A stretch of DNA of 51,475 nucleotides, from positions 1 through 51,475 of the forward strand of contig JAGMCT010000017.1 of assembly GCA_023129075.1 (NCBI GenBank). Reading direction: 5' to 3'. The stretch is from Microcaldota archaeon. Its GTDB lineage: Archaea; Micrarchaeota; Micrarchaeia; Anstonellales; Bilamarchaeaceae. A program made the translations under genes and the position numbers. The notes beneath the pieces are model-generated. The model was not told the DNA's origin. It did no database searches and saw only the letters and a list, made by a program, of their open reading frames with translations. Shown here one piece after another: positions 31 through 22,080 of this stretch. Each line of letters opens with the position of its first letter. The stretch's first letter is position 1.

Positions 31-870
31 ATGGTTCAAAAACAGTTTAGAGTAACTCCTGAAAGACTTAAATGCCTAAGAAATAAATTCAGGAAGACTG
101 ATGTTTTTATTGACAGAAATACCAAGGAGATTATAGGAAAACGATTAGATTTTCTGATGATTCTAAACGGTCATTACAAAATAAACTTTGAGAAAGCAAA
201 GGAAAACAGAACCATCATGGCAGAAGTAAAGAATAGATTTCTTGCAAGGGAAGATAAAGAAAGTAGTAATGACAGGGCAAGGGATGATGGATATTTCTCC
301 TATGAATACCAGGATAAGGAGAAAATAAAGGTTTTGATTAAGGATGCTATTCTTCAAATGTTAAGGAATTATAGAGTAAAGGAGCTTTTTGATGAAGGAA
401 CAATCTATGTTTCCAGCTATTATTCCTGGAAAAAACCAGAAGTAAGAAGAAAAGCAGTTAAAATCCTTTTAAGGGTTCTAGAAAAGGACCCAAAAAACAT
501 CGTTAAGGACGATTTCTCTGATAATAGATTAGGCGGACTTTTAGCTCATTACAATAACAGCCCATATCTTGCAATAAAGGAAATCCACTCGAGAATAGAA
601 GAATGGGAGATGGCCTTCACCCCAAATGGTTTCTACAATAGGAAAAGAAACAGAATTAAAGCAATAAGATGGCTAATAGAAAAACTAAACAAAAACCCAA
701 GAGATATCATTAAGGATGATTTTTTTGACAATAGATTGGGGGGACTTTTAACTCATTACAAAGACAGCCCATATCTTGCAATAAGAGAAGCCTACCCAAA
801 AATAAAACCAGAAGAAATGAGAACATGGGTGAGGAAAACAACAATAGAAAAATCACAACCCACCATTTGA
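31..870 (+). CDS. Modular 70-aa-repeat protein, paralog 1 (2 repeats)
   Basis: 279 aa. The N-terminal domain (about residues 1-135) is basic and shared almost identically with four downstream paralogs. Two repeats of about 70 aa follow, each with the skeleton W/ILLIEKL..DPRDI-x-x-DF-x-DNRLGGLL..HY..SPYLAI.E.YP.I.EWEM..TP..FY. The last repeat ends in a cap (IKPEEM...TTIEKSQ) found at the end of every paralog. No signal peptide or membrane segment is visible, so the protein is probably cytosolic. This copy has the fewest repeats and may be a deletion product of a five-repeat ancestor. The start follows a TATA box by about 29 nt with no ribosome binding site, consistent with a leaderless mRNA. 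I cannot name a family with confidence. The GLL..SPY.A...YP..WE pattern resembles repeats I associate with hypothetical bacterial and phage proteins. Function unknown. Confidence 0.85.
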   Translation: MVQKQFRVTPERLKCLRNKFRKTDVFIDRNTKEIIGKRLDFLMILNGHYKINFEKAKENRTIMAEVKNRFLAREDKESSNDRARDDGYFSYEYQDKEKIKVLIKDAILQMLRNYRVKELFDEGTIYVSSYYSWKKPEVRRKAVKILLRVLEKDPKNIVKDDFSDNRLGGLLAHYNNSPYLAIKEIHSRIEEWEMAFTPNGFYNRKRNRIKAIRWLIEKLNKNPRDIIKDDFFDNRLGGLLTHYKDSPYLAIREAYPKIKPEEMRTWVRKTTIEKSQPTI

Positions 871-895
871 ATGCTTATACGAGATTCCGGGCTTC

Positions 896-937
896 CAAAC
901 ACTCCTTTTTAAACATTTTGGCACTAAATGTAATATC
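896..937 (+). promoter_or_regulatory. Leaderless promoter of repeat paralog 2
   Basis: Copy of the conserved block: CAAACACTCCTTT, TATA box TTTAAACA at 908-915, TTTTGGCACTAAATG and the ATG at 938. The TATA-to-ATG distance leaves no room for an untranslated leader. Upstream of it the GAG..CTC palindrome seen in copies 3-5 has decayed. Confidence 0.6.
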
Positions 938-2410
938 ATGGTTCAAAAGCAGTTTAGAATCAACCCTGAAAGACTTAAATACCTCAGAAATAAGTTCAGG
1001 AAAACCGACGTTCTTATTGACAGGAATACTAGAGAAATTATAGGAAAACGATTAGATTTTCTGATGATTCTAAACGGTCATTACAAAATAAACTTTGAGA
1101 AAGCAAAGGAAAACAGAACCATCATGGCAGAAGTAAAGAATAGATTTCTTGCAAGGGAAGATGGAGAACCTGTTTCCGATAGGGCAAGGGACGACAGTTA
1201 TCTTTCTTACGAATACGAAGACAATGCAAAGTTAGGGATTTTGATTAAGGATGCCATTCTTCAAATGTTAAGGAATTATAGAGTAAAGGAACTTTTTGAT
1301 GAAGGAACAATCTACGTTCCGAGATATTCCTGGAAAAAACCAGAGGTAAAGAGAAAAGCAGTTAAAATTCTTTTAAGGGTTCTGGAAAAGGACCCAAGAG
1401 ATATCACTACGAATGATTTCAAAGACAATCGACTAAGAGGACTTTCGGCTCACCATTGCAATGACAGTCCTTATCTTGCAGTAAAGGAAATCTATCCCGA
1501 GATAAAGGAATGGGAGATGAAAACCACCCCAAAATCCTTCTTCGACACGAAAGAAAACAGGATTACAGCAACAGGATGGTTAATAGAAAAACTAAACAAA
1601 AACCCAAGAGACATAACCCAGAAGGATTTCATTGACAACAGATTGAGCGGACTTTTATATCATCATTACAAAGGCAGCCCATATCTTGCAATAAGAGACG
1701 CATACCCAGATATAAAGGAGTGGGAGATGGTCTTCAGCCCAAATTTTTTCTACAAGAAGAAAGAAAACAGGATTACAGCAATAAGATGGTTAATAGAAAA
1801 ACTAAATAAAGACCCAAGAGACATCATTCTGAAAGATTTCATTGACAACAGATTAAGCGGACTTTTAACTGAGTATTACGGTAACAGCCAATATCTTGCA
1901 ATAAGGGAAGCCCATCCAGAGATAAAAGAATGGGAAATGAAGATCACCCCAAGGTCCTTCTTTGATAGAAAAAAAAACAGGATTACAGCAACAAAATGGT
2001 TAATAGAAAAACTAAACAAGGACCCAAGAGACATTACTGCCAATGATTTCCGTGACAACAGGTTAAGCGGACTTTTGTTTCATCATTACAAAGGCAGCCC
2101 CTATCTTGTAATAAGGGAAGTCCATCCAGAGATAAAAGAATGGGAGATGCAAATCACCTCAAATTCTTTTTATGATAAAAAGGAAAACAGAATTAATGCA
2201 ATAAAATGGTTAATAAAAAAACTAAACAAGAATCCAAGAGACATCACTCTAAAGGATTTCAAAGACAACCGATTAGGTGGCCTTTTATCTAAGCATTACA
2301 AAGACAGCCCATACCTTGCAATAAGAGAAGCCTACCCAAAAATAAAACCAGAAGAAATGAGAACATGGGTGAAGAAAACAACAATAGAAAAATTACAAAC
2401 AACTGTTTAA
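938..2410 (+). CDS. Modular 70-aa-repeat protein, paralog 2 (5 repeats)
   Basis: 490 aa: N-domain (1-134) followed by five tandem repeats of about 70 aa. The core between the I-T and D-N-R-L anchors varies as TN-DF-K, QK-DF-I, LK-DF-I, AN-DF-R and LK-DF-K, while most other positions are constant. Two further variable patches lie after GLL and around WEM-x-x-TP-x-x-F. Such conservation with a few variable positions is what modular recognition arrays look like, but no ligand is known. N-domain residues 75-100 read DGEPVSDRARDD..EYEDNAKLG, the version shared with paralogs 3 and 4. The last repeat carries the shared terminal cap. Adjacent paralogs are separated by only about 65 bp and each has its own promoter. 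Confidence 0.88.
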   Translation: MVQKQFRINPERLKYLRNKFRKTDVLIDRNTREIIGKRLDFLMILNGHYKINFEKAKENRTIMAEVKNRFLAREDGEPVSDRARDDSYLSYEYEDNAKLGILIKDAILQMLRNYRVKELFDEGTIYVPRYSWKKPEVKRKAVKILLRVLEKDPRDITTNDFKDNRLRGLSAHHCNDSPYLAVKEIYPEIKEWEMKTTPKSFFDTKENRITATGWLIEKLNKNPRDITQKDFIDNRLSGLLYHHYKGSPYLAIRDAYPDIKEWEMVFSPNFFYKKKENRITAIRWLIEKLNKDPRDIILKDFIDNRLSGLLTEYYGNSQYLAIREAHPEIKEWEMKITPRSFFDRKKNRITATKWLIEKLNKDPRDITANDFRDNRLSGLLFHHYKGSPYLVIREVHPEIKEWEMQITSNSFYDKKENRINAIKWLIKKLNKNPRDITLKDFKDNRLGGLLSKHYKDSPYLAIREAYPKIKPEEMRTWVKKTTIEKLQTTV

Positions 2411-2419
2411 TACCTATCC

Positions 2420-2474
2420 GAGTACTCAGGACTAAACACTCCTTTTTAAACATTTTGGCACTAAATGTAATATC
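2420..2474 (+). promoter_or_regulatory. Promoter of repeat paralog 3 with GAGTACTC palindrome
   Basis: The palindrome GAGTACTC at 2420-2427 lies about 18 bp upstream of the TATA box TTTAAACA (2445-2452). The ATG at 2475 follows at the distance expected for a leaderless transcript. The position and core match copies before paralogs 4 and 5, so the palindrome may be an operator or BRE-adjacent site. Confidence 0.5.
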
Positions 2475-3944
2475 ATGGTTCAAAAACAGTTTAGAATCAA
2501 CCCTGAAAGACTTAAATACCTCAGAAATAAGTTCAGGAAAACCGACGTTCTTATTGACAGGAATACTAAGGAGATTATAGGAAAAAGACTGGATTTTCTG
2601 ATGATTCTTAACGGCCACTATAAAATAGACTTTGAAAGGGTAAAGAAAAATAGGACAGTGATGGCCGAAATAAAGAATAGATTTCTTGCAAAAGAGGACG
2701 GAGAACCTGTTTCAGACAGGGCAAGGGATGATGGATATTTTTCTTACGAATACGAAGACAATGCAAAGTTAGGGATTTTGATTAAGAATGCCATTCTTCA
2801 AATGCTTAGAGATTACAGAGTAAAGGAGCTTTTTGACGAGGGAACAATCTACATTCCAAAATATTATTCCTGGAAAAAACCAGAAGTAAGAAAGGAAGCA
2901 GTTAAAATCCTCTTAAGAGTTCTAAAAAAAGACCCCAGAGATGTCACTTACTATGATTTTCTTGACAACAGATTAGGAGGACTTTTGGTCAACCATTACA
3001 ACAATAGTCCACATTTTGTAGTAAAAGAACTCTATCCAGAAATAAAAGAATGGGAGATGTCCTGCACCCCACATGGTTTCTACGATAAGAAGGAAAATAG
3101 AATTAAAGCAATAAAATGGCTAATAGAAAAACTAAACAAAAACCCAAGAGATATCACTTACCATGATTTCCCTGACAACAGATTAGGAGGACTTTTGATC
3201 AAGCATTACAACAATAGTCCACATCTTGCAGTAAAAGAACTCTATCCAGAAATAAAAGAATGGGAGATGTCCTGCACCCCACATGGTTTCTTTGATAAGA
3301 AAGAAAACAGGATTAAAGCAGTAAAATGGTTAATAAAAAAACTAAATAAAGATCCAATAGAAATCACTAGTAATGATTTTCGAGACAATCGTTTAAGCGG
3401 ACTTTTAGACTATTACGATGGTCCTTACCTTGCGATAAAGGAAATTTATCCAGAAATAAAAGAATGGGAAATGAAAACTACCCCCATGTCGTTTTATAAT
3501 AAGAGAGAAAACAGAATTAAAGCAATAAAATGGCTAATAGAAAAACTAAAAAAAGACCCAAGAGATATCACTGCCAATGATTTCCGAGACAATAGATTGG
3601 GGGGGCTTTTAGTAAGTCATTACAAATCCAGCCCATATCTTGCAATAAAGGAAGTTTATCCAGAGATAAAAGAATGGGAGATGTCCTGCACCCCACATGG
3701 TTTCTACAATAAGAGAGAAAACAGAATTAAAGCAATAAAATGGCTAATAGAAAAACTAAACAAAAATCCAAGAGACATAACAACAAATGATTTCTTTGAC
3801 AACCGATTAAGCGGACTTTTCGTTACATATTACAAAGGTAGCCCGTACCTTGCCATAAAGGAAGCCTACCCAAAAATAAAGCCAGAAGAAATGAGAAACC
3901 TAGTTGGAAAAACAACAATAGAAAAATCACAAACAACTGCTTAA
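2475..3944 (+). CDS. Modular 70-aa-repeat protein, paralog 3 (5 repeats)
   Basis: 489 aa: N-domain plus five repeats. Variable cores are YY-DF-L, YH-DF-P, SN-DF-R, AN-DF-R and TN-DF-F. Repeats 1, 2 and 4 share the patch SCTPHGF and repeats 1-2 also share HYNNSPH, which points to recent duplication inside this gene. Repeat 3 is slightly shortened (LLDYYDGPYL). The C-terminal cap is conserved (IKPEEM then TTIEKSQ). The gene ends 16 bp from the convergent Fic gene. Leaderless start. Cytosolic by appearance; function unknown. Confidence 0.88.
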   Translation: MVQKQFRINPERLKYLRNKFRKTDVLIDRNTKEIIGKRLDFLMILNGHYKIDFERVKKNRTVMAEIKNRFLAKEDGEPVSDRARDDGYFSYEYEDNAKLGILIKNAILQMLRDYRVKELFDEGTIYIPKYYSWKKPEVRKEAVKILLRVLKKDPRDVTYYDFLDNRLGGLLVNHYNNSPHFVVKELYPEIKEWEMSCTPHGFYDKKENRIKAIKWLIEKLNKNPRDITYHDFPDNRLGGLLIKHYNNSPHLAVKELYPEIKEWEMSCTPHGFFDKKENRIKAVKWLIKKLNKDPIEITSNDFRDNRLSGLLDYYDGPYLAIKEIYPEIKEWEMKTTPMSFYNKRENRIKAIKWLIEKLKKDPRDITANDFRDNRLGGLLVSHYKSSPYLAIKEVYPEIKEWEMSCTPHGFYNKRENRIKAIKWLIEKLNKNPRDITTNDFFDNRLSGLFVTYYKGSPYLAIKEAYPKIKPEEMRNLVGKTTIEKSQTTA

Positions 3945-3959
3945 TTAATCCTGTTGATT

Positions 3960-4595
3960 TCACTTGATTTTAATTCGTTGTTCTAAAAATTCTTCAGCCA
4001 GAAACTTTTTTATATACTGTCTGATATGGTCTTCGGTTATTCTTTTTCTAAATTTTATTCCATTTTCTTTTAGTAATGTTTTTAAGTCATCCGAAGTTTT
4101 ATCCTCATTCCAGTCCGCAATTAATTCTATCTTTTTTCCCCTCTCAAGTATATATTTTTTATCATGGTTAAGAACGTACGAGCTGTATCTTTTATCGTTG
4201 TTTATGTAAGATAACATATTCAATCCAAGAAAAACAGAAGAGCAGACTAAAGCAGTCCTTTTATTACCGTCTATAAAAGGGTGCCTGCATGCTATTTCAA
4301 ACAATATATCTTCTGAAAGTTTCAAAATGGTTTTATATTTCTTTTTCTTTCCAAAACGCTCAAATTTCCCCCTAATTTTATCTTCAAAAAAATCAAGTTG
4401 CCCTTCACTTTTAAGTCCTTTGGAGGGAACGTCGTAGTTGTGTTTCCTGCAATATTCCTCTACCCCATCATGAAGAGAAATTATTGCTTCAGCCGTAGGA
4501 AGACAAAGAAAAGATTTTTCCTTGGTGAGAAAATTTTCACTAAGCAGAAGAGGAAATTCCCCCAAATCTTTTAATTTAACCTTAATAAATTTCAT
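3960..4595 (-). CDS. Fic/Doc family protein
   Basis: 211 aa. The Fic core motif HPFIDGNKRT spans residues 105-114 (catalytic-type His105, Asp109, Gly110, Asn111, Arg113). The N-terminal part has a Doc-like helix around PTAEAIISLHDG. Fic proteins transfer AMP or another phosphate-containing group to proteins; Doc-type members are phosphotransferase toxins. The intact HPFx(D/E)GNxR motif favours nucleotide transfer over the Doc variant, but the substrate cannot be read from sequence. The gene sits on the opposite strand inside the repeat-protein array, between paralogs 3 and 4. A 36-codon ORF ends 11 bp upstream and may be its antitoxin or a remnant of one. No inhibitory (S/T)xxxE(G/N) helix was recognised with certainty. 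Confidence 0.85.
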   Translation of the reverse strand: MKFIKVKLKDLGEFPLLLSENFLTKEKSFLCLPTAEAIISLHDGVEEYCRKHNYDVPSKGLKSEGQLDFFEDKIRGKFERFGKKKKYKTILKLSEDILFEIACRHPFIDGNKRTALVCSSVFLGLNMLSYINNDKRYSSYVLNHDKKYILERGKKIELIADWNEDKTSDDLKTLLKENGIKFRKRITEDHIRQYIKKFLAEEFLEQRIKIK

Positions 4596-4605
4596 AGTGG
4601 TGGCT

Positions 4606-4716
4606 CTAACGCGACGCCAGATACTTTATGGCTTTTTTATTTGACTTGAAACTTTTTTCAATTATTTCAACAATGGAATTTTTCAACTTTTTATTTCGTA
4701 TTTCCTTCTCTACCAT
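4606..4716 (-). CDS. Possible 36-aa partner/antitoxin of the Fic protein
   Basis: Short ORF starting MVEKEIRNKKLKNS and ending YLASR, lysine-rich and predicted helical. It is preceded by a clear GGAGGG ribosome binding site 6 nt before the ATG, and by TTTAAA boxes further upstream near 4740-4760. It ends 10 bp before the Fic start codon on the same strand, the usual order of antitoxin and toxin. It is shorter than Phd-type antitoxins (about 70 aa), so it may be truncated or a new type. The evidence is position and the ribosome binding site only. Confidence 0.45.
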   Translation of the reverse strand: MVEKEIRNKKLKNSIVEIIEKSFKSNKKAIKYLASR

Positions 4717-4814
4717 TGGAATCCCTCCAAATATTTATTTGTTTAAACCTTTAAATAGGTTTCTGGTCTTCTTCGGTTAAATCCGTCATTTGTTGCTGAG
4801 TTATAAGTCAATTC

Positions 4815-4872
4815 GAGAGCTCAGGGCTTTCAAACACTCCTTTTTAAACATTTTGGCACTAAATGTATTATC
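4815..4872 (+). promoter_or_regulatory. Promoter of repeat paralog 4 with GAGAGCTC palindrome
   Basis: GAGAGCTC at 4815-4822, TATA box TTTAAACA at 4843-4850, then TTTTGGCACTAAATGTATTA next to the ATG at 4873. This copy has ATGTATTA where the others have ATGTAATA, which makes it identical there to the ankyrin-family promoters. Confidence 0.5.
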
Positions 4873-6129
4873 ATGGTTCAAAAACAGTTTAGAGTAACCC
4901 CTGAAAGACTTAAATACCTCAGAAACAAATTCAGGAAAACAGACGTTCTTATTGATAGGAATACCAAGGAGATTATAGGAAAACGATTAGATTTTCTGAT
5001 GATTCTTAACGGTCATTATAAAATAAACTTTGAAAGTGCAAAGGAAAACAGAACCATTATGGCAGAAGTAAAAGACAGATTTTTGGCAAGGGAAGATGGA
5101 GAGCCTGTTTCAGACAGGGCAAGGGACGACAGTTATCTTTCTTACGAATACGAAGACAATGCAAAGTTAGGGATTTTGATTAAGGATGCCATTCTTCAAA
5201 TGTTAAGGAATTATAGAGTAAAGGAACTTTTTGATGAGGGAACAATCTACGTTCCGAGATATTCCTGGAAAAAACCAGAAGTAAAGAGAAAAGCAGTTAA
5301 AATCCTTTTAAGGATTCTTGGAAAGGACCCAAGAGATCTTACTAAAGATGATTTCAATGATAATAGATTAGGTGGCCTTTTAGCTCACCACAAAGGTAGC
5401 CCCTACATCGCAATAAGGGAAAGCTACCCAGAAGTAAAAGAATGGGAGATGAAAAATACTCCAATATACTTTTTTAAGAAGAAGGAAAACAGAATTAAAG
5501 CAACAAGTTGGTTAATAAAAAAACTAAAAAAAGATCCAAAAGACATCACTCGGAAGGATTTCATTGACAACAGATTGACCGGACTTTTAAATCATTACAA
5601 CGGCAGTCCTTATCTTGCTATAAAGGAAGTCCATCCAGAAATAAAAGAATGGGAGATGAAAACTACCCCGATTTCTTTCTACGATAAGAAAGAAAACAGA
5701 GTTAAAGCAATAAAATGGTTAATAGAAAAACTAAATAAAGACCCAAGAGATGTAACTTGGAATGATTTTCGTGACAATAGATTAGGCGGACTTTTAGTAG
5801 GCCATTACAAATCCAGTCCATATCTTGCAATAAGAGACGCATACCCAAAAATAAAAGAATGGGAGATGATAAGTACACCGAGATCTTTCTTTGACAAGAA
5901 AGAAAACAGAATTAAAGCAATAAAATGGATGATAGAAAAACTAAACAAAAACCCAAGAGATGTAACTGGGGATGATTTCCGTGACAATAAATTAGGTAGA
6001 CCTTTACGCTATCATTACTACAACATCCTGTATCTTGCAATAAAGGAAGCTTATCCAGAAATAAAACCAGAAGAAATGAGAACATGGGTAAAGAAAACAA
6101 CAATAGAAAAATTACAAACAACTGCTTAA
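4873..6129 (+). CDS. Modular 70-aa-repeat protein, paralog 4 (4 repeats)
   Basis: 418 aa: N-domain plus four repeats. Variable cores are KD-DF-N, RK-DF-I, WN-DF-R and GD-DF-R. The last repeat is the most degenerate of the family: DNRLGGLL has become DNKLGRPL and the SPYLAI segment reads ILYLAI, although the terminal cap IKPEEM is intact. It lies just after the Fic locus and has a complete leaderless promoter, so it is likely expressed. No signal peptide. Function unknown. Confidence 0.87.
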   Translation: MVQKQFRVTPERLKYLRNKFRKTDVLIDRNTKEIIGKRLDFLMILNGHYKINFESAKENRTIMAEVKDRFLAREDGEPVSDRARDDSYLSYEYEDNAKLGILIKDAILQMLRNYRVKELFDEGTIYVPRYSWKKPEVKRKAVKILLRILGKDPRDLTKDDFNDNRLGGLLAHHKGSPYIAIRESYPEVKEWEMKNTPIYFFKKKENRIKATSWLIKKLKKDPKDITRKDFIDNRLTGLLNHYNGSPYLAIKEVHPEIKEWEMKTTPISFYDKKENRVKAIKWLIEKLNKDPRDVTWNDFRDNRLGGLLVGHYKSSPYLAIRDAYPKIKEWEMISTPRSFFDKKENRIKAIKWMIEKLNKNPRDVTGDDFRDNKLGRPLRYHYYNILYLAIKEAYPEIKPEEMRTWVKKTTIEKLQTTA

Positions 6130-6138
6130 TACCTATCC

Positions 6139-6193
6139 GAGCACTCAGGACTAAACACTCCTTTTTAAACATTTTGGCACTAAATGTAATATC
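6139..6193 (+). promoter_or_regulatory. Promoter of repeat paralog 5 with GAGCACTC palindrome
   Basis: GAGCACTC at 6139-6146 and TATA box TTTAAACA at 6164-6171, with the ATG at 6194. The 60 bp upstream of this gene are almost identical to those upstream of paralog 3, including the stop-codon context of the preceding copy. This suggests duplication of a gene-plus-promoter unit. Confidence 0.5.
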
Positions 6194-7660
6194 ATGGTTC
6201 AAAAACAGTTTAGAATCAACCCTGAAAGACTTAAATACCTAAGAAATAAGTTCAGGAAAACAGACGTTCTTATTGACAGGAATACCAAAGAAATTATAGG
6301 AAAAAGACTGGATTTTCTGATGATTCTTAACGGCCATTATAAGATGGACTTTGAAAGGGCAAAGAAAAACAGAACCATCATGGCAGAAGTAAAGAATAGA
6401 TTTTTGGCAAGGGAAGACGGGGAACCTGTTTCCGACAGGGCAGGGGATGAAGGATATCTTTCTTATGAATACCAGGATAAGGAGAAAATAAAGGTTTTGA
6501 TTACTACTGCCATATCTCAAATGCTCAGGGCTTACAGAATAAAAGAACTTTATGATGAAGGAACAATCTACGTTTCCCCCTATTCCTGGAAAAAACAAGA
6601 AATAAGAACTAAAGCAGTCAAGATTCTTTTAAGGGTTCTGGGGAAGAACCCAAGAGATATCATCATTAAGGATTTCTATGACAATAAATTAGGCGGACTT
6701 TTACGCAGTCATCACAAAAATAGTCCCTATCTTGCAATAAGGGAAGTCCATCCAGAGATAAAAGAATGGGAGATGTCGAGTACACCAAATTTCTTCTACG
6801 GTAAGAGAAAAAATAGAATTAAAGCAATAAAATGGTTAATAGAAAAACTAAACAAAAACCCAAGAGATATCACTAGGGATGATTTCCGTGACAACAGATT
6901 AAGAGGACTTTTGACTCATTATAATAATAGTCCATACCTTGCAATAAAGGAAAGTTATCAAAAAATAAAAGAGTGGGAGATGAAAACCACCCCAAGGTCC
7001 TTCTTTGACAAGAAAGAAAACAGGGTTAAAGCAGTAAAATGGTTGATAGAGAAACTGGGAAAGAACCCGAGAGACATCACTATGCTTGATTTCTTTGACA
7101 ATAGATTAAGAGGACTTTTGGCTCATCACAGAGATAGCCCATATCTTGCAATAAGAGAAGCCTATCCGGAAATAAAAGAATGGGAGATGAAAACCACACC
7201 AATGTTTTTCTACAAGAAGAAGGAAAACAGAATTAAAGCAATAAAATGGCTGATAAAAAAACTAAAAAAAGACCCAAAAGACATCATTCAAAAGGATTTT
7301 CTTGACAACAGATTAAGCGGACTTTTAAAATATTACAAAGGCAGTCCATATCTCTCAATAAGGGAAGTCCATCCAAGAATAAAAGAATGGGAGATGCAAG
7401 TCACTCCAAGATCCTTCTTTGATAAGAAAGAAAACAGAATTAAAGCAATAAGATGGCTAGTAAAAAAACTAAAAAAAGACCCAAGAGACATTACTTATGA
7501 TGATTTCCATGATAATAGGTTAGGCGGGCTTTTACAAAGTCATCATTACAACGGTAGCCCCTATCTTGCAATAAAGGAAGCTTATCCAGAAATAAAACCA
7601 GAAGAAATGAGAAATAAAGTGGGAAAAACAACAATAGAAAAATCACAAACAACTGTTTAA
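6194..7660 (+). CDS. Modular 70-aa-repeat protein, paralog 5 (5 repeats)
   Basis: 488 aa: N-domain plus five repeats with variable cores IK-DF-Y, RD-DF-R, ML-DF-F, QK-DF-L and YD-DF-H. N-domain residues 88-106 carry the EYQDKEKIKVLI version found otherwise only in paralog 1, while residues 74-79 (DGEPVS) match paralogs 2-4, so the N-domain is a mosaic. The gene ends the array; the next gene has an unrelated promoter. Cytosolic by appearance, function unknown. Confidence 0.88.
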   Translation: MVQKQFRINPERLKYLRNKFRKTDVLIDRNTKEIIGKRLDFLMILNGHYKMDFERAKKNRTIMAEVKNRFLAREDGEPVSDRAGDEGYLSYEYQDKEKIKVLITTAISQMLRAYRIKELYDEGTIYVSPYSWKKQEIRTKAVKILLRVLGKNPRDIIIKDFYDNKLGGLLRSHHKNSPYLAIREVHPEIKEWEMSSTPNFFYGKRKNRIKAIKWLIEKLNKNPRDITRDDFRDNRLRGLLTHYNNSPYLAIKESYQKIKEWEMKTTPRSFFDKKENRVKAVKWLIEKLGKNPRDITMLDFFDNRLRGLLAHHRDSPYLAIREAYPEIKEWEMKTTPMFFYKKKENRIKAIKWLIKKLKKDPKDIIQKDFLDNRLSGLLKYYKGSPYLSIREVHPRIKEWEMQVTPRSFFDKKENRIKAIRWLVKKLKKDPRDITYDDFHDNRLGGLLQSHHYNGSPYLAIKEAYPEIKPEEMRNKVGKTTIEKSQTTV

Positions 7661-7723: not shown

Positions 7724-10700
7724 ATGGGGTCCATGGGAAAAAATATACTATTATGTTCACTTCTTTTCTTATCCTTATTCGCTTCCCTCTCCTATTCTAC
7801 CGCCCCAAAGGATTCAGGTGTAATCTTCTCATTCTCCCACGGAGAAATTAATGTTTCTGTACTCACTACAGATAGAGGAGAAATAAAACTAAGGGATTAT
7901 GAAGCAAACAAGGAATTCTTCAATACCTTCTTTACCACGGGGTTTGATGAAGGAGGAGCCGTAACCCCCATCCCGGATACTGCATCCCTGGAAGATAAGG
8001 GCTATTTAGAAGAAGCAAAGGTAAAAATCTTCTACGAGAAATCCGGCCAATGGACCCAGAAAAATCTCAACCAAAAATGCAAGGAAATACAAATAAGCAA
8101 TTTTTTCGGAACCTGCGAACTAAAAGAAGAGATATATGAACAAAAATGCATAAACCTGAAGATTGAGTACGCAGGTGAAAAGGATAAGATTGCCTCTTCT
8201 GTAACTTATGCTACCGTCTGCGATACAACACATGGAATATTTCCTGTCCTTGGAAGCGCAATAAACAAAAACCTTGACCAGAACGACCCGATGTGTGTCC
8301 TCACAACCCTTCTGCTCGGCCTTCTTCTTGCAAGTATGTTCTTCACAGGAAGAAGTCCTCTCTCTCTTCTTGATATTACAACCCCTATGCTTCCAAGGCC
8401 TAAAGGATTCGCTTTCCGCAGTTTTAGTTTCGGAGGCGGTTTCTGGAAGATGAAACAAGAGCTTCTCGCTCAACAGAAGATGTTCAAAAAATCATTCAAG
8501 GAAAGTGTGAAGGTGCTTGGAGAGAGACTGAAGAAATTAAATCCTGCAAATACCGCATTCATAAATTCCATTCTGCGTTCAACTGCTTCTATAAGAACAA
8601 AGGCTCTTGCTCTTGCCCTTATGGAGAAGGGCGCTAATAAAAAAAGCGTCATGAAAATAATTGCTACTGATGATGAAAAGATTGCAAAGAAATGGGGGCT
8701 TTCCAAGGATGAGAGGGAAAAAACTCTCAGAGATGCAGTTTTCAGATTGAAAGAGATAGAAGGAAAGAAAAGAGGTTTGGGCGAATTCATAGACCTGAGC
8801 CTAAGAAATGAGATGCTTGTGGCTGAGATGCCAAGCGGTCCGAAGTGGTTCAATAAAAGCATAGGAAAGGTTGTTGGTTTTATTCCTGGAGTAAACAGGA
8901 TAGCCATGGTTGGTGCTGCTTCCATAACCGGAACTCTTAGGAACATGAGGAGCATAGCAAGAGCTACAGCAGGACTCCCTGTCGCAGTTGGTGATTCACT
9001 CACAGAAGGGGCGGTTCAGAGAAGGATTGGCCTTGCAAGGGAAAAGAAAGGAGCAAAAGGAAAACTTGCCAAAGGAGCATACGGTTTCTTCTACCCCGAA
9101 CACATTGAAAAGGCAGAAAAGCTCTGGGATACCCTTCCGAGGGAAGCAAGGATGTATAAAGAACTTATGAAGAGCGCAAAGAACGACCTTAAAGCATATT
9201 ATATTACCCAAATACTTAAGAAAAAAGGAATTAATCTTTCAATTTCCTACGATGAGCTTATGACCCTTCTTTTTGATGAGGACATAGACACAAAGAGTAC
9301 GAAGAAGCTTAATGATACAGAAAAGCAGCAATTAATAGATAAATTGAATGTGCTCAAGGCGCTTGGAATAGAAGGGGTTAACCCTGCAGAGCTTCTTGAG
9401 ATAGACCGAAAAATCCGGAATATTCTTACTGATAAAAAACTGGGGGATTGGGATAGGATTACTGAACTTGCAAAACTAGCAAATCAATACGGTGCTTATG
9501 GAGATATCAGGGCACTCGGAGCAATGAAAACCCTCAAAGCTTTTGAGGCTGATAAAAGGGCGGATTCGGAAAAACTTCAGGACTTTATGACCTATCTAAA
9601 AAATACATACCGCGTAGACAAGCCTGTTAATTCTATAACCGATCTGGCAGGTGCAACAGGAAGAAAATTTTATTTCATGACCGGAAGGGACAGTTTGGTA
9701 TATGGGAATGGCACTTCAGATATATTTAGATATTATGTTCTTCACTCTTATATCCAGGAGGTTGAGAAAGGAAAGGCAAGCAACAAACATTATGCTTTAG
9801 AGCGCCCAAGCAATGGCAACTTCCTTGTTGATGTTGTAAAATTGAATACAGTAAAACTCTTTAACCAGAAATGGGGTTTTCCAGACCCTACAGACCCGCG
9901 CCTTAAAAATGACAGATTCAAGACCGCCATGTTCCAGATGAAGTTGATGCTCAATGATTTTATAGATGTAGATAAACTTGAGAGGTTCCTTGGAAAGAAA
10001 ACAGATGTGGCTGTTTTGAACCCAACTGATTATCTCTACAGCCAGAAGATTGGAAAAAGAATAACATCCTACCAAGAAATAAAGGAGGAATACGGCCCTG
10101 ATGATGTATGGAAGCTGGATGTAAAGCACTTCTGGAATGTAGGCACCAAAGGTTCAAGAAAAACAGCAGAGCATGAGGCTTATGGAAGGGTTCATCTTGC
10201 TCATATCCATTCTCCAGAACCTGTAAGGGTGGTTGCACACAAATATATGCACACCCGAATGAAAAGTATGATAGGAGAAAGGTCCCCTAATGCGATTTTC
10301 TTTTCCAATTCTGAATATAGATCCCTTAAGGAAATACGTATGGCTTATATGGATAGGATTCTTGAATATAGGGGAGAGGACCCCACCAAATTTAGTATGG
10401 ACCAGAAACTCCAGATGGTTTCATACAAAAATATAAAGGATTTCACCCAGAAGACCATATCTCTGGCAGAGATGAAGAAGTATACTTGGGTAAGAACAAA
10501 AGAAGGCCAGCTTATTCCATTCAGGGACAACATGTCTTTCTCAGATGCGGAAAGGATAGTAAACGGACGCCTTACTTATAGAACAAGAAACAATAGGTGG
10601 GCGCCCATGGAGCTTGAGAAAGTAAATCTCATAAGCCTTCCAAAAAAATATTTTGATCAGATGGGTAAGGTATCTACTATTCAGGATTACAGCACTTTAT

Positions 10701-12292
10701 ACGGAGATCTGAAAGGTTGGGCAGATAAGCATGGAAATAAAGAAAAACTCCTTATGCTTGCAGCACTCAAACAGACTGCCACTACTAAGCTGGGCCAGCC
10801 TGATCTTTTCTGGCAGTCCACAGTACAGAACAAAGACGTCAAGGTAAACCCATACAACGAAAGAGCCCCTGGTATGAAAGGTTTATGGGATAGGGTAATA
10901 CAAGGTGTTTCTCAGGGTATAGAAACCACACTAATCTCTGCTGCTCTGCCCCAGCTGAAAAAGATGTATGAAACAACAGCCCTTTCAGAGGATTACAGGC
11001 AAAGGGTTTCAAGAATGTCACAGGAGATTATCTCAGGAAAGGCAAAGGCCAGAAATCCAGAGGCAATGAAATTTTATGAACAATTTATTGATTCTACGAT
11101 AAGATATCATACAGCATGGGATAATGCAATTACGCGAGACCCCAGAGGAAACAGCTCGGATATAGGTCACCAGTTCATTTTTGCCTCATTCTTCCACCAC
11201 GGTCCTGCTGTTCCATTTGAATCAAGTTTTGATACCAATTTTTATTATGGAAAAAGAAGGAAAGCAGTAATGGACCTTCTTATGAATCCAATAAGGATAA
11301 ATTGGGCAATAGGAGGGGCGTTTGCTTCTGCCTACAGAACTCATCTTACTTCTAGGTGGGGCTATCCTCATAAATATGATAGAACAGAAGACCCGCTTGA
11401 GCCTTATGCAATGACACCTCCAAGAACAAGGGATGCAGTAACTTCCCTTCTCAATCCCCTATTTGCAGGGGTTGACCTTTTTTCAGCATCAGCAAAAGGG
11501 TTTGCCTACCGCTTAGGAAATGTCATTGGGGCGGGAAGTGGTCCTTTGACACGGAAGCTTGGTCTTGCGGAAGGTGTTATGCCCAAAAAAACAGCTAGAA
11601 CTCCAGGATTCATGAAGGAATCCCTTTTGAGGGAACTCTTCGGAGGAGACGCCACAAGAACTGGTTATGCTGGTGATGAGTCAAGAATGGGTATCCACCG
11701 TTCTCACGAAGATACCTCTTGGATACACAAAAACATAAACATAATACATGGAAATACCAATCCCGGTGCTTCTTATGAAAGCTGGAGAAGAACAGCTCAT
11801 ATGGACCCAAGACTTGCAGTTCACCTTACAAAGGGCTCAAAATATGCTTCCTATTATTCCAAAGACACTTATCTTCAGAAGCAGGCAAGCCTGGGTATAG
11901 TAAAAAGAGAGATAACAGCAGAGAGATTATGGGAAAAGAGAGAGGCCCAGCTCAGGAGCTACGGGGCAAGGCAGAACACCCTTTTCGGTTTCCTTAATCC
12001 TTTTATGTTTGCTGTCCACACCCCTCTCATACCTCTTATAAGTACAACAGGAATTTTGAAGGGTGGAGAAAGGGCTGCTAAATTTATTGCTACGGACCAA
12101 TTGAGCAGAAGAGAGAAGTGGAAATATGTAAAGGGCTTACGGATGGTTCCTGCTGCATGGTTAGCAAGGAAAACATATGAGACAGGAAAGAGAGAGCTCA
12201 GACAGACATTTGCATTTACTTCAGTCCAGAGAAGACTGGTTTTTGACCCAGTAACCGGAAAACTTATAAAACCGGATAACTATTCTGCTTAG
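7724..12292 (+). CDS. Large membrane-anchored protein of unknown function
   Basis: 1522 aa. An N-terminal signal peptide (about residues 5-26, ILLCSLLFLSLFASLSYS) is followed by an exported domain to about residue 185 with several cysteines. A strong membrane segment follows around 190-208 (VLTTLLLGLLLASMFF). The remaining 1300 residues are mostly soluble and basic, with weaker hydrophobic stretches near 380-405 (VVGFIPGVNRIAMVGAAS) and near 1440-1460 (LNPFMFAVHTPLIPLIS). If the signal peptide is cleaved, the large C-terminal part would lie on the cytoplasmic side. I recognise no family. Eight bases downstream is a lipoprotein with a lytic transglycosylase domain, translated from a GGTGA site, so the two very probably form an operon. 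By analogy with VirB6/VirB1 pairs, a surface or secretion role is possible, but this is inference. Confidence 0.8.
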   Translation: MGSMGKNILLCSLLFLSLFASLSYSTAPKDSGVIFSFSHGEINVSVLTTDRGEIKLRDYEANKEFFNTFFTTGFDEGGAVTPIPDTASLEDKGYLEEAKVKIFYEKSGQWTQKNLNQKCKEIQISNFFGTCELKEEIYEQKCINLKIEYAGEKDKIASSVTYATVCDTTHGIFPVLGSAINKNLDQNDPMCVLTTLLLGLLLASMFFTGRSPLSLLDITTPMLPRPKGFAFRSFSFGGGFWKMKQELLAQQKMFKKSFKESVKVLGERLKKLNPANTAFINSILRSTASIRTKALALALMEKGANKKSVMKIIATDDEKIAKKWGLSKDEREKTLRDAVFRLKEIEGKKRGLGEFIDLSLRNEMLVAEMPSGPKWFNKSIGKVVGFIPGVNRIAMVGAASITGTLRNMRSIARATAGLPVAVGDSLTEGAVQRRIGLAREKKGAKGKLAKGAYGFFYPEHIEKAEKLWDTLPREARMYKELMKSAKNDLKAYYITQILKKKGINLSISYDELMTLLFDEDIDTKSTKKLNDTEKQQLIDKLNVLKALGIEGVNPAELLEIDRKIRNILTDKKLGDWDRITELAKLANQYGAYGDIRALGAMKTLKAFEADKRADSEKLQDFMTYLKNTYRVDKPVNSITDLAGATGRKFYFMTGRDSLVYGNGTSDIFRYYVLHSYIQEVEKGKASNKHYALERPSNGNFLVDVVKLNTVKLFNQKWGFPDPTDPRLKNDRFKTAMFQMKLMLNDFIDVDKLERFLGKKTDVAVLNPTDYLYSQKIGKRITSYQEIKEEYGPDDVWKLDVKHFWNVGTKGSRKTAEHEAYGRVHLAHIHSPEPVRVVAHKYMHTRMKSMIGERSPNAIFFSNSEYRSLKEIRMAYMDRILEYRGEDPTKFSMDQKLQMVSYKNIKDFTQKTISLAEMKKYTWVRTKEGQLIPFRDNMSFSDAERIVNGRLTYRTRNNRWAPMELEKVNLISLPKKYFDQMGKVSTIQDYSTLYGDLKGWADKHGNKEKLLMLAALKQTATTKLGQPDLFWQSTVQNKDVKVNPYNERAPGMKGLWDRVIQGVSQGIETTLISAALPQLKKMYETTALSEDYRQRVSRMSQEIISGKAKARNPEAMKFYEQFIDSTIRYHTAWDNAITRDPRGNSSDIGHQFIFASFFHHGPAVPFESSFDTNFYYGKRRKAVMDLLMNPIRINWAIGGAFASAYRTHLTSRWGYPHKYDRTEDPLEPYAMTPPRTRDAVTSLLNPLFAGVDLFSASAKGFAYRLGNVIGAGSGPLTRKLGLAEGVMPKKTARTPGFMKESLLRELFGGDATRTGYAGDESRMGIHRSHEDTSWIHKNINIIHGNTNPGASYESWRRTAHMDPRLAVHLTKGSKYASYYSKDTYLQKQASLGIVKREITAERLWEKREAQLRSYGARQNTLFGFLNPFMFAVHTPLIPLISTTGILKGGERAAKFIATDQLSRREKWKYVKGLRMVPAAWLARKTYETGKRELRQTFAFTSVQRRLVFDPVTGKLIKPDNYSA

Positions 12293-12300
12293 GTGAATTT

Positions 12301-14583
12301 ATGAAAATTCCTTTTTATATTTCTCTCCTTGTTTTTTCTTTATTACTCCTTGGAGGGTGCACCTCTTTTCTTGACGGCACTGCCGACTATTTTACAGCAA
12401 CAGATAAAGGAGATGCAATAAAGGAAGTGGTTTTTCTTGAGCTCAGCCCTTCAAAATGCTACCTTGGAGAATGTTATTGTTTTCTTTGCGAGGATATGAG
12501 CGATGTCAGCTGGCCCCTTGACTTATTCATAGATTCTGCTCTTCTTTACGGAGACTGCTCTTTTTCTCCGTGCACAGAAGATACCTTCACCCAAATGTAT
12601 TTCTTTGAGAGCGGTCAGTATGTGCTTCCCTTTCTCTTCGGCCAGGGTCCTAGCTTTCTTTCCTATTCTGATGGCAATTCCTATTCAAATAATTCCATGC
12701 AGCTTGCCGTGAAATGGCTCTATGCAAACGGAAATGATTATCCAATACCTGTTGCAGAAAAAGCCAAATGCTTCCTAAGACACAGGGTGATTCCGCTTTA
12801 TATTCTTTACAGCGAAGGAAAAAGCGTAAGCGCCTCACGCGCCGGGCAGGTAGCACAAAGCTTCAAGGACCTTGGTCCTGTAATGATAACAACCGAAATG
12901 AATCCGGACCTTTCGGACCCCCAGATTCTTTCAGAAGTAAAACAACAGATAATAGAGATGGATTCTGCATGTCCGAAGTGCCTCATAGCCCTTGCCCTTA
13001 AGGCGGGAGATTTTGAAGGGGCAAAGGCAGTTCTTTCTGATAAATCTGTTTCAGCAAAGGTGGACCTTATTGCATACGGCTTGAATTCATCTTTCTCAAA
13101 GAAATGCACAGGAAGAGACCTTTATATAAACGCTTTGAATTTTTCTAATTTCCTTCTCCAAGGATACAACAAACCTTCTATATGGGCTTATGTTCTTCTT
13201 GAGGAAGGAGAGTATGGAGAATGTGAATGGACAGCAGGAGAGATACAGGAAACTTACTCACTTGCTCTAAAATACATCCCTGCGTTTGTTTACAGAGGAG
13301 TTATAGGCATGGCACCTTATTCATTCTACCATTATGAAAACGGCCCTCTGGAATGCAAGGACTGTGCATTCTTTGATAAGGAATTTTATCCTTATACTGA
13401 AAAAATATATTCCTGGTTCGGGAATGTTCAGCGCTACTACACCTCTTACGGTGCTTATCCTGTAACCTACACAAACAATTCGGCAACCGACTGCTCCTTT
13501 GGTGGAAATCCATTGGTTTACTACGGCTTGGCTATGAGTGCTGGAACCCAAGATGACAGCGGAAACAATATTCTTGAACCTCTTGATTACACATTCTTCA
13601 GGTGTGATGCCTGCCTTGCTTCTTTCAGCGGAGAGGAGTTTCCGTTTACTCTTACAAAATCAGCAGGTTCTCCTCCGGAAAACATCTGCGGAAATGAGGA
13701 AGGAATTACTCCAGAACGGCAGTTTCTTATGAAATCCATAGAGGTTTATGCAGATATGCACGATTTGGATTTTGCATGGGCAAAGGCAATAGTATGGCAG
13801 GAAAGCAATTTCAATCCGTGTGCGGTTTCTGCTGCAAAATCCACTGCTCCCTGCAACCCCTACAACCTTAAGATAGGAGCTATAAAGGATGTTGAGGATG
13901 CCTGTACATTCCAGGACCTTTCCTCCAGTTTTCAAGCATCTGAAAACCTTTATTCCAAAGACCCGGAAACAGAGATTGAATACAAACCCTGCGCCTTCGG
14001 CCTTATGCAGGTAATAGATTACGGCCATGGCTGGACAAAGGCACACGACCCCTACTTCAGCCATCCTAAGGAGGTTCTCTCATGCACGGATGAATACAAC
14101 CCCTTTAATCTTCAACACTCCCTTTGCGTGGGAACTGCAATTCTTCAGACATATTTTATAGAAGCCATTGAGATTGTTGATGATAATAGAGCTGCCCTTG
14201 AGATAAACAGCAAAGAACTTGAAAACTCAGAACTGGAAGATGAAAAAAAGCAGGAACTTGAATCGTTGGAAGAGGAAAAGAGAATAATTATTGCTATGTT
14301 TATTGCATCTCATAAATATTACGGAGATTGGAATTCTAATTGGATACATTCCTTTTCAAGCCAGAAAGACAAGAAAAGTACAAAAGAGAAAACCTGCGGT
14401 GAGGGAAAGTGCTGTGGAAATAAGGATTTCTTAAATTATGTCGGCAACTGCCTTGAAAACAGCAATGGAGAAGAGTATTTCTATGGAAACCAGGTAATGG
14501 CAAAATACAAAAAAATAAGAGAAGAATGTAAATACTGCGATGAAGAAAGCTGGGTTGAGGCATTAAGAAATTATTTTGAGTGA
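12301..14583 (+). CDS. Lipoprotein with C-terminal SLT (lytic transglycosylase-like) domain
   Basis: 760 aa. The lipoprotein signal ends in LLGGC with the lipidated Cys at residue 20. Residues about 160-345 (PLYILYSEGKS.. VDLIAYGLNSS.. KPSIWAYVLLEEG) look like a separate alpha/beta domain, perhaps barrel-like, which I cannot assign. Residues about 490-680 have the order of an SLT domain: WQESNFNP with the presumed catalytic Glu501, AFGLMQV (565-571), NPFNLQHSLCVGTAIL (600-615) and IAMFIASHKYYGDW (664-677) in place of the usual AxAAYNAG. Such domains cut murein glycan strands, which is surprising in an archaeal context. A coiled, charged insertion (about 637-660) lies within it. The protein is rich in Cys, so disulfides outside the cell are likely. 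Co-operonic with the 1522-aa membrane protein. Confidence 0.75.
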   Translation: MKIPFYISLLVFSLLLLGGCTSFLDGTADYFTATDKGDAIKEVVFLELSPSKCYLGECYCFLCEDMSDVSWPLDLFIDSALLYGDCSFSPCTEDTFTQMYFFESGQYVLPFLFGQGPSFLSYSDGNSYSNNSMQLAVKWLYANGNDYPIPVAEKAKCFLRHRVIPLYILYSEGKSVSASRAGQVAQSFKDLGPVMITTEMNPDLSDPQILSEVKQQIIEMDSACPKCLIALALKAGDFEGAKAVLSDKSVSAKVDLIAYGLNSSFSKKCTGRDLYINALNFSNFLLQGYNKPSIWAYVLLEEGEYGECEWTAGEIQETYSLALKYIPAFVYRGVIGMAPYSFYHYENGPLECKDCAFFDKEFYPYTEKIYSWFGNVQRYYTSYGAYPVTYTNNSATDCSFGGNPLVYYGLAMSAGTQDDSGNNILEPLDYTFFRCDACLASFSGEEFPFTLTKSAGSPPENICGNEEGITPERQFLMKSIEVYADMHDLDFAWAKAIVWQESNFNPCAVSAAKSTAPCNPYNLKIGAIKDVEDACTFQDLSSSFQASENLYSKDPETEIEYKPCAFGLMQVIDYGHGWTKAHDPYFSHPKEVLSCTDEYNPFNLQHSLCVGTAILQTYFIEAIEIVDDNRAALEINSKELENSELEDEKKQELESLEEEKRIIIAMFIASHKYYGDWNSNWIHSFSSQKDKKSTKEKTCGEGKCCGNKDFLNYVGNCLENSNGEEYFYGNQVMAKYKKIREECKYCDEESWVEALRNYFE

Positions 14584-20187: not shown

Positions 20188-21270
20188 TTATTGAATTACT
20201 TTCTTTACCTTATTCTTATCAAGTTTCTCTCTTGGTTTTCTCATTTCATTACTCTTAATATCTATATTCTTATTCCGTGCTCTCTGAAGATTTCTGAATA
20301 ATTCTAATGCTTCTGTTTTTGATATTGAACCTTTCTTCTGAGATTCTCTCAGTACTTCAATTACTTCTCCTCTTCTATCTTTAGAAATATTCCCTGGATT
20401 AGAATACAGGTCAAGTATAAGTTTCTGTTCTTTGCTAAATAGTTCTGGTTTTTCTCTTTTCATTTTATTTATTGTTTCTCTTGCTTTCTCATTTCCATAG
20501 GCACAAATAATACCTGCGCCTGTCTTTATCAATAGCTCAACTGTTTCTGTATGTCCATCCCTAACAGCCTCCATTAGTGCTGTTCCACCAAAGTAATCTC
20601 TTGCATTAACGTTCGCACCTTTCTTAATCAATAACTTTGCTATTTTTATATTTCCGTTCGAAGAAGCAATCATAAGTGCAGTATCGCCAAACTTATTTTT
20701 TGCATTAACGTTCGCACCTTTCCGTATTAACAGTTCAACTATTTCCATAGGTCCTTTTCTAGTAGCTTTCATCAGTATTGTCATACCATTATATTTCTTT
20801 GCATGCACATCTGCCCCTTTTTTTATCAGTAGTTTGACTATATTTGTATGCCCGTTCCGGGTAGCCCACAGTAGTGCTGTCTCACCAAGTTTGTTCTTTG
20901 CATCTACCTCAGCCCCTTTCTTAATTAATAGTTCAACCAGTTTTGTACATCCATTTATGGCAACATTCATTAATGCTGTCTGACCATTTTCACCCGTTGC
21001 ATTAATATCTGCTCCATTTTCTATAAGGAGTTTGGCTGTTTCTGTATGTCCATATCGAGAAGCTTTCATCAGTGGTGTCCAACCCTTTTCATGCTTTACA
21101 TTTTTATCCCTTACATTTACGTCTGCTCCATGTTGTATTAATAATTCAACTGTTTCTGTACGTCCATTCTTAGCAGCTTCCAGCAGTTCCTCGTTCTTTC
21201 GGCCAAATCTTTTCTTTGGTTTTTTCATTTCACTGTTTATCTTAAGTTTTATTTTCTCATTCCAATCCAT
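20188..21270 (-). CDS. Ankyrin-repeat protein with shared C-terminal domain (copy B)
   Basis: 360 aa. About seven ankyrin repeats (roughly residues 27-260) follow the G-x-TALM-A...GH-TE-VELLI-KGADVNA consensus. The last 100 residues (EKPELFSKEQKLILDLYSNP.. KGSISKTEALELFRNLQ.. MRKP) form a domain found in all five ankyrin proteins of this window. The N-terminus has an insertion (WNEKIKLKINSEMKKPKK) that resembles the extreme C-terminal tail of its paralogs. Its ATG directly follows the stop of copy A with no gap, so it is translationally coupled. No signal peptide. The ligand is unknown. Confidence 0.9.
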   Translation of the reverse strand: MDWNEKIKLKINSEMKKPKKRFGRKNEELLEAAKNGRTETVELLIQHGADVNVRDKNVKHEKGWTPLMKASRYGHTETAKLLIENGADINATGENGQTALMNVAINGCTKLVELLIKKGAEVDAKNKLGETALLWATRNGHTNIVKLLIKKGADVHAKKYNGMTILMKATRKGPMEIVELLIRKGANVNAKNKFGDTALMIASSNGNIKIAKLLIKKGANVNARDYFGGTALMEAVRDGHTETVELLIKTGAGIICAYGNEKARETINKMKREKPELFSKEQKLILDLYSNPGNISKDRRGEVIEVLRESQKKGSISKTEALELFRNLQRARNKNIDIKSNEMRKPREKLDKNKVKKVIQ

Positions 21271-22080
21271 TCACATCACCCTGTTAATTTTTTTCAGATT
21301 ATTTCCGTTAGGTTTCTCTCTTGGTTTTCTCATTTCCTTACTCTTAATATCTATTTTCTTATTCCATATTTTCTGAAGATTAGTGAATAATTTTAATGAT
21401 TTTTCTTTTGTTATTGAACCTTTTTTCTGGAATTCTCTTAGCAGTTTGATTACTTCTTTCCTTTTATCATGAGGAATCTTCTCTGGATTGGAATACAAAT
21501 CAATCATAACTCTTTGTTTTTCTGTAAATATTTCCGGCTTCTCTTCCCTAAGTTTGATTATTATTGTTTTTGCAATAGGATGTCCATATGCATAAACAAC
21601 GTTTGCTCCATTTTTTATTAATAGTTTTATTGTTTTTGTTTGTCTAAATATAACAGCATACGTAAGTGCGGTTCCACCATCATTATTTCTTGCATTCACA
21701 TCTGCTTCTTCCCGTATCAATAGTTCAACTGTTTCTGTATGTCCCTTCCCAGTAGCATGCATCAGTGCTGTCAAACCAGAGTTATTCTTTGCATCTATAT
21801 CTGCTCCTTTTTGTATCAATAGTTCTGCTGTTTCTGTATGTCCATTGTGAGCAGCCCCTATTAATGCTGTTTCACCATAATTATTTTTTGCAGTTACCTC
21901 TGCTCCTTTCTGTATTAATAGTTTTACTGTTTCTGTATGTCCTTCCCCAGCAGCACCTATTAGTGGTGTCCGACCAAAGTTAATCTTTGTATTAACATTT
22001 GCTCCTTTTTTTATTAGTAATTCAACTGCTTCCATATCTCCTTTCTCAGCAGCTTTCAGCAGTTCTACATTCAAATCCAT
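21271..22080 (-). CDS. Ankyrin-repeat protein with shared C-terminal domain (copy A)
   Basis: 269 aa: MDLNVELLKAAEKGD then about five ankyrin repeats (to about residue 170) and the family C-terminal domain (EKPEIFTEKQRVMIDLYSNP.. MRKPREKPNG). Several repeat segments are nearly identical (GHTETVELLI, GHTETAELLI), indicating recent repeat duplication. It has a leaderless promoter shared with other ankyrin copies. It is the first gene of a two-gene unit with copy B. Ankyrin repeats mediate protein binding; the partner is not known. Confidence 0.9.
   Translation of the reverse strand: MDLNVELLKAAEKGDMEAVELLIKKGANVNTKINFGRTPLIGAAGEGHTETVKLLIQKGAEVTAKNNYGETALIGAAHNGHTETAELLIQKGADIDAKNNSGLTALMHATGKGHTETVELLIREEADVNARNNDGGTALTYAVIFRQTKTIKLLIKNGANVVYAYGHPIAKTIIIKLREEKPEIFTEKQRVMIDLYSNPEKIPHDKRKEVIKLLREFQKKGSITKEKSLKLFTNLQKIWNKKIDIKSKEMRKPREKPNGNNLKKINRVM

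Follow-up and report, generated by a model that had tools for sequence, protein, structure and literature searches.

Why would an archaeon in whose genome no murein pathway is found keep a lipoprotein with a domain of the lytic-transglycosylase (SLT) type, and why does its gene stand directly behind that of a giant membrane protein? The question is raised by contig JAGMCT010000017.1 (here C9) of the Microcaldota archaeon assembly GCA_023129075.1; the contig was analysed over its whole 51,475 nucleotides, called the window below. The two genes encode a 1522-amino-acid (aa) protein, given the working name GIANT, and its 760-aa partner, called the lipoprotein. Taken together, the results make it probable that the pair forms the VirB1-like opening and scaffold part, facing the envelope, of a machine that resembles Ced/Ted and descends from a type IV secretion system (T4SS); six VirB6/CedA-position proteins and a VirB4/CedB-like motor would also belong to it. 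An earlier note on this DNA had already raised the ideas of surface lysis, which is possible, and of a transfer apparatus, which gene neighbourhoods support: an array of six genes for multi-transmembrane (TM) proteins adjoins the pair in nine of the 12 GIANT loci outside the window's own family, and elsewhere in the phylum the array stands beside a VirB4/CedB-like ATPase gene in four of five loci.

The gene pair and its two proteins

Both open reading frames lie exactly where the earlier note had placed them, on the same strand and 8 bp apart. A Shine-Dalgarno-like site extends over the GIANT stop, and 4-bp overlaps between the frames occur in several relatives, so that GIANT and the lipoprotein are probably translated together by translational coupling. 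Chance open reading frames can be ruled out, because homologs of the lipoprotein and of GIANT were found in 51 and 53 of 59 related genomes, respectively. The pair itself recurs in other genomes, where the earlier note had suggested looking for it: the lipoprotein gene follows GIANT on the same strand in 36 of the 37 GIANT loci of the order, usually within 200 bp and often with an overlap of a few bases. The contig was rightly called archaeal, since genes for topoisomerase VI A and B lie downstream of the pair on the opposite strand and all relatives are archaeal, which rules out bacterial contamination. A search with the SLT alignment yielded 15 loci in named genomes, mostly Candidatus Micrarchaeota and otherwise labelled 'archaeon' or 'Candidatus ainarchaeum', and a contig search with the GIANT protein as query gave no match. 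Outside the window's order and certain families of its class, the lipoprotein is almost absent from the phylum sample, and it was not found in well-completed genomes of family f12 (f5, f6, f7 and f11 denote other families of the window's order; f12, f13 and f17 lie elsewhere in the phylum).

The C-terminal domain of the lipoprotein is, on sequence grounds, a real but divergent SLT domain. The whole protein scored 22.2 bits against Pfam family PF01464 (gathering score 21.3) and the domain scanned alone 26.3 bits; PF01464 was matched by 15 of 27 homologous domains, and essentially no other family was matched. With its LLGGC lipobox and archaeal contig, this agrees with the earlier view of an SLT lipoprotein in an archaeon. 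When the SLT profile was searched against the PDB, enzymes of the glycoside hydrolase family 23 (GH23) type came out on top (EtgA, MltC, MltE and goose-type lysozymes) with weak E-values, only EtgA falling below E 0.01 and the helix of the catalytic Glu alone being covered. The order of SLT motifs around that Glu, as read in the earlier note, holds among the homologs, with Glu501 and the GLMQ motif largely kept (Table 1). The spacing between the two is about 60 residues, includes conserved Cys and exceeds that of ordinary SLT domains. In the AlphaFold model the domain is helical with modest predicted local distance difference test (pLDDT) values and loops below 50, and a fold search with the whole lipoprotein yielded barrels throughout. 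The SLT Glu is absent in some relatives, and some f7 and f11 lipoproteins of 475-489 aa have no SLT domain and keep the barrel described below, so that murein cutting would not be a universal function of the family.

A murein synthesis pathway was not found in the genome behind the window (0.99 Mb, 93% complete), the single Mur_ligase_M gene being folC, and own murein synthesis is thus ruled out as far as the assembly reaches. If the SLT domain cuts murein, its target would consequently be another cell, and the likeliest, though unproven, substrate is a partner cell's murein. Pseudomurein, which the earlier note had also considered, found no support.

The AlphaFold model adds a second catalytic-looking module to the lipoprotein, overlooked in the earlier note. 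It is a confidently predicted N-terminal barrel of the clan GH-A type, which matches GH2, GH5, GH26 and GH53 enzymes (Foldseek E 1.6e-6; Z up to 17.9, root-mean-square deviation 3.5, 262 residues). Counting strands in the model places Glu199 at the acid/base position and residue 301 at the nucleophile position. The latter is Asp in 24, Glu in four and another residue in 11 of 39 homologs, the window copy having Glu. Because Glu199 is near-invariant and position 301 is mostly Asp, the barrel could work as a glycosidase of an unusual type or bind glycans. The N-terminal half of the lipoprotein is also more conserved than the SLT domain.

GIANT was said to match nothing known, and indeed no family was found in Pfam or NCBIfam and no meaningful structure match in the PDB. 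Its supposed single membrane anchor needs amending: the TM helix stands, but an N-terminal signal sequence is present as well, as it is in all complete relatives. A cleaved signal peptide, one TM helix and basic residues behind it predict a topology with an ectodomain of about 160 aa, including conserved Cys, outside the membrane and about 1300 aa in the cytosol, which does not fit the earlier picture of a mainly surface-exposed protein. The juxtamembrane motif just after the TM helix is the best-conserved stretch of GIANT across the order. Many relatives end in a zinc-ribbon-like C-x2-C...C-x2-C motif that the window copy does not have.

Six-gene arrays and ATPase cassettes

In the order's other families, the region upstream of GIANT holds the array, termed c1; it is divergent and encodes paralogous proteins of 5-8 TM helices with the motif GLxLRxFxxTRxxGGxLIAxAxxxYFxYP. 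Its distance from GIANT is 49-120 bp in four f5 loci and 1.9-3.2 kb in five f6, f7 and f11 loci, in four of which a gene of about 925-1000 aa, presumably leucyl-tRNA synthetase as judged by eye, stands in between; the other three GIANT loci outside the window's family had no array in the stretch fetched. The window's own genome carries its array on contig C2 (locus L111; G000:C2:53676-60260), apart from the window contig. In a tree of 65 rows, each GIANT-adjacent array position forms a clade with exactly one L111 gene, and the gene order is the same. Seven further arrays from other families contain exactly six members each, and a second six-gene array of the own genome lies on contig C5 (L112). 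For twelve six-gene arrays, position alone predicts the clade: 7 changes of the label suffice, against a minimum of 6 and a mean of 51 after shuffling, on a tree that was built by a quick method and has several weak deep forks. Judging from this tree and the shared order, the six genes are colinear one-to-one orthologs across families.

Lipoproteins also accompany other arrays. The second array of genome G160 adjoins a lipoprotein of the same family as that in the window (E 5e-8). The second module in the own genome (L112:915-13829; G000:C5) is paralogous: its six-gene array is followed by genes for a Cys-rich lipoprotein of 1855 aa and a secreted protein of 1030 aa; this lipoprotein has a distant similarity to the N-terminal part of the window lipoprotein (E 3e-5, probability 73%). 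A shared barrel was not confirmed by a hidden Markov model search, the profile similarity being limited to the Cys region at the N-terminus and to the first strands of the barrel. The L111 array has, at a distance of about 5 kb, a gene for a secreted protein of 768 aa that weakly matches M6-type metalloproteases (L111:432-2738; G000:C2).

The link to a motor comes from families f12, f13 and f17, in which the four ATPase-linked arrays mentioned above share one operon with genes for two proteins of about 275 aa with 2-3 TM helices and for a VirB4/HerA/CedB-like ATPase. Two of these four operons have a small pilin-position protein just upstream, and the operons hold up to three further proteins. 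The same, orthologous ATPase gene set is present in the own genome on contig C6 (L113). A simpler relative of the array proteins, present in single copy, belongs to a cassette with a membrane protein of about 250 aa and an ATPase in all 10 loci tested, joined in nine of them by a pilin-position gene with 2-3 TM helices. In the own genome (L110:9224-12618; G000:C1) this cassette encodes an 81-aa pilin-position protein, a 311-aa protein with 6 TM helices, a 259-aa protein with 2 TM helices and a 477-aa CedB-like ATPase, and the order is kept in other families; the protein in the CedA position has 6-8 TM helices. Against NCBIfam the ATPases matched CedB and CedD best, above HerA and VirB4, with scores below the equivalog cut-offs. 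A tblastn search of plasmids with the single-copy channel protein gave no match. The operon context, which resembles the composition of Ced and Ted systems, suggests that the array proteins take the VirB6/CedA position.

The proposed machine and its rivals

If the pair is part of such a machine, the lipoprotein would be exported and then lipid-anchored outside the membrane, where the ectodomain of GIANT would hold it at the channel. The cytosolic part of GIANT could scaffold the channel or couple it to the motor and the cargo. On the outer side, the barrel would bind or cut surface glycan and the SLT domain would make local cuts in the murein of a bacterium in contact with the archaeon, or in an aminosugar glycan of similar chemistry; through the opened wall the machine could pass DNA or protein from cell to cell. 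In effect the SLT domain would do the job of VirB1, aimed outward because the archaeon makes no murein. Direct parallels would be the lysozyme and peptidase genes beside virB4 in a Patescibacterium (PMC12102498) and the archaeal murein hydrolases that kill bacteria (PMC12352652). In this scheme we infer the substrate, the cargo and the direction of transfer.

Several observations weigh against it. The VirB4-like ATPase sought near the pair is not there: none is encoded in the window, and the ATPase genes of the own genome are on other contigs. More generally, no locus was found with GIANT, array and ATPase together, and the pair was never seen directly beside VirB4. Since the window's family has both array and ATPase on contigs other than that of the pair, the functional link rests on the relatives. 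The TrbL profile (PF04610) had no match in the own genome, so that homology of the six proteins to VirB6/CedA is without sequence support, and a search of the array proteins against PDB sequences gave no match either; their assignment rests on operon position and the number of TM helices. The pilin-position protein matched TrbC with E 0.8, which is chance level. The model of GIANT residues 250-1445 is mostly helical and, with a pLDDT of 48.8, too uncertain for use.

An alternative is a device without a transfer machine, in which the lipoprotein would degrade the murein of neighbouring bacteria on contact, in predation, antagonism or scavenging, and GIANT would be its membrane holder. The divergent SLT domain with a conserved Glu, the lack of an own murein pathway and, in the window's own family, a location of the pair away from the array all speak for such a stand-alone weapon or feeding device. 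There are precedents in archaeal murein hydrolases that kill bacteria (PMC12352652) and in lytic transglycosylases of Woesearchaeota and Pacearchaeota, reported in 2021-2022 and read as possible attack on bacterial walls (PMC8204110, PMC9723730). We nevertheless regard it as rather unlikely: a protein predicted to be mostly cytosolic is odd as a mere holder, the six-gene array is associated with the pair in four other families, and some f7 and f11 members lose the SLT domain and retain barrel and GIANT. Barrel and SLT domain might also work on the cell's own surface glycan (S-layer or exopolysaccharide) and so clear space for a pilus or complex, with no bacterial target involved. In favour of this, no other catalytic-looking part is as conserved as the barrel (Glu199 in 36 of 39 homologs), which is retained where the SLT domain is missing, and bacterial VirB1 enzymes likewise act on the cell's own wall. 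However, the known substrates of GH23-type enzymes are murein or chitin-type aminosugar chains, and we know of no such polymer in these archaea, which makes self-remodelling an unlikely explanation of the pair.

Both domains might instead be degenerate glycan-binding folds and the lipoprotein an adhesin or structural plug. The loss of the SLT Glu in some relatives, the mostly Asp beta7 position with its 11 other residues and the large Cys-containing insert could be read in this way. It is hard to reconcile with the retention of the SLT Glu (32 of 37), the Gln of GLMQ (27 of 39) and Glu199 at an overall identity of about 30% among the homologs, and we consider a non-enzymatic lipoprotein very improbable. 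The pair as opening and scaffold module of a T4SS-derived machine is the reading we prefer. In its boldest form, it would belong to a new class of conjugation-like machines, with a channel of six different VirB6/CedA-like subunits, perhaps a hetero-hexameric ring; each subunit would have one gene, and the fixed gene order would have arisen no later than the divergence of the families of the phylum. In one order this channel would carry two additions, GIANT as a very large scaffold in the cytosol and a lipoprotein with two enzymes for opening a bacterial partner's wall, allowing DNA or protein transfer across domains; this extension is doubtful, and we offer it tentatively.

Features of the window and place among known systems

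The coordinates of the pair and its motifs are collected in Table 1.

Table 1. Features of the GIANT and lipoprotein genes (positions in the window)
Feature	Position	Strand	Basis
GIANT gene, 1522 aa	7724..12292	+	Homologs in 53/59 relatives; no known domain
GIANT signal sequence (about aa 1-26)	7724..7801	+	Hydropathy; in all complete homologs; cleavage site inferred
GIANT single TM helix (aa 187-212)	8282..8359	+	Hydropathy peak, same place in 12/12 aligned homologs
GRSPLSLLDITTPxLPxPK juxtamembrane motif of GIANT (aa 209-227)	8348..8404	+	G209, P212, D217, P221 invariant in 19 divergent sequences
TRDPRGNSS motif region of GIANT (about aa 1125-1142)	11096..11149	+	R1138, D1139, R1141, G1142 invariant in 12-sequence alignment
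GGTGA Shine-Dalgarno-like site	12292..12296	+	Overlaps GIANT stop, 4 nt ahead of lipoprotein ATG; read from sequence
SLT lipoprotein gene, 760 aa	12301..14583	+	Homologs in 51/59 relatives
Lipoprotein signal peptide, lipobox LLGGC (Cys20)	12301..12360	+	Kept in most homologs
Predicted (beta/alpha)8 barrel, clan GH-A type (aa 108-385)	12622..13455	+	AlphaFold model; Z up to 17.9
Glu199, end of predicted strand beta4 (GH-A acid/base position)	12895..12897	+	Glu in 36/39 homologs
Glu301, end of predicted beta7 (GH-A nucleophile position)	13201..13203	+	Asp/Glu in 28/39
SLT (GH23-type) domain with Cys-containing insert of about 60 residues (aa 472-695)	13714..14385	+	Pfam, alignment, profile search
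Glu501, SLT catalytic Glu (ESNFNP)	13801..13803	+	Glu in 32/37 homologs having the domain
GLMQ motif (aa 567-570)	13999..14010	+	G in 35/39, Q in 27/39

Elsewhere in the window, positions 31-7660 (+) encode five proteins of 279-490 aa built from a repeat of about 70 aa (KENRIKAIKWLIEKL..PRDIT..DF..NRL.GLL..H..SPYLAIRE.YPEIKEWEM), which matched no Pfam family above cut-off and were unique to this locus among the compared neighbourhoods. A Fic/DOC family protein is encoded inside this cluster on the opposite strand (3960-4595). Three ankyrin-repeat proteins, a kind often seen in symbionts, are found at 20188-22080 and 42647-43618. The large subunit of ribonucleotide reductase (38715-41825) is split by an intein with a LAGLIDADG homing endonuclease, and 47069-51031 encodes a protein of 1320 aa, a NosD-like right-handed beta-helix that also has a carboxypeptidase-regulatory-like domain. 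The CNNM/CBS/CorC-HlyC protein at 45633-46892, by Pfam an ordinary ion-transport-type membrane protein, is possibly of the TlyC kind; TlyC was called a pore-forming toxin in transglycosylase-bearing Woesearchaeota (PMC9723730). On another contig of the same genome (L114:9660-16000; G000:C16), tandem paralogs of 251-526 aa have a common 'KSTCRxIFGxExGxL' start.

Among known systems, the lipoprotein resembles the VirB1-type transglycosylases of T4SSs and EtgA of the type III secretion system, its best PDB match, in its SLT domain, its predicted export and its probable genetic tie to a membrane transfer machine. It differs from them in its lipid anchor, the fused GH-A-type barrel, the Cys-containing insert, its occurrence in an archaeon without murein and a 1522-aa partner not known in T4SSs. 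The Ced and Ted systems are T4SS-derived DNA exchange systems with VirB2/CedA1-, VirB6/CedA- and VirB4/CedB-like parts (PMC9905601), in which CedE is a paralog of CedA and CedD one of CedB (PMC11868833). The cassettes described here share with them a CedB/CedD-like ATPase, a CedA-position protein of 6-8 TM helices and a small pilin-position protein. Ced has CedA and its paralog CedE with no glycosidase described, whereas here the CedA-position paralogs number six in colinear order, and GIANT and an SLT/GH lipoprotein come in addition.

Reduced, episymbiont-type genomes and VirB4/VirB6-like systems are also found in Patescibacteria, in one species of which lysozyme and peptidase genes beside virB4 are essential for epibiotic growth (PMC12102498); those systems are bacterial and have pilin arrays instead of six VirB6-like genes. 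The T4SS of Rickettsiales (PMC7648143) likewise includes several virB6 paralogs, some very large, but it is bacterial and GIANT, with a single TM helix, is not VirB6-like. DPANN archaea also have fam00969, a family of large extracellular SLT proteins described as murein-like lytic transglycosylases (PMC8204110), which is reported to be mostly absent outside Woesearchaeota and Pacearchaeota, reaches 3000 aa and has no partner genes or machine noted. Among open-licence papers we found no report of a DPANN transglycosylase tied to a transfer machine, nor of six-gene arrays of VirB6/CedA-position proteins in Micrarchaeota; none turned up on VirB6 in Micrarchaeota or on CedB in DPANN archaea either. 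SLT proteins in DPANN are already known, and their tie to a transfer machine appears to be new.

The finding bears on the exchange of material between wall-less, reduced DPANN archaea and other cells. Six ordered channel paralogs, a CedB/VirB4-like motor, GIANT and the SLT/GH lipoprotein form a defined gene set, with which the use of a T4SS-derived machine, a hetero-oligomeric channel and the breach of a bacterial wall become testable, and the scattered reports of lytic transglycosylases in DPANN archaea gain a possible mechanism.

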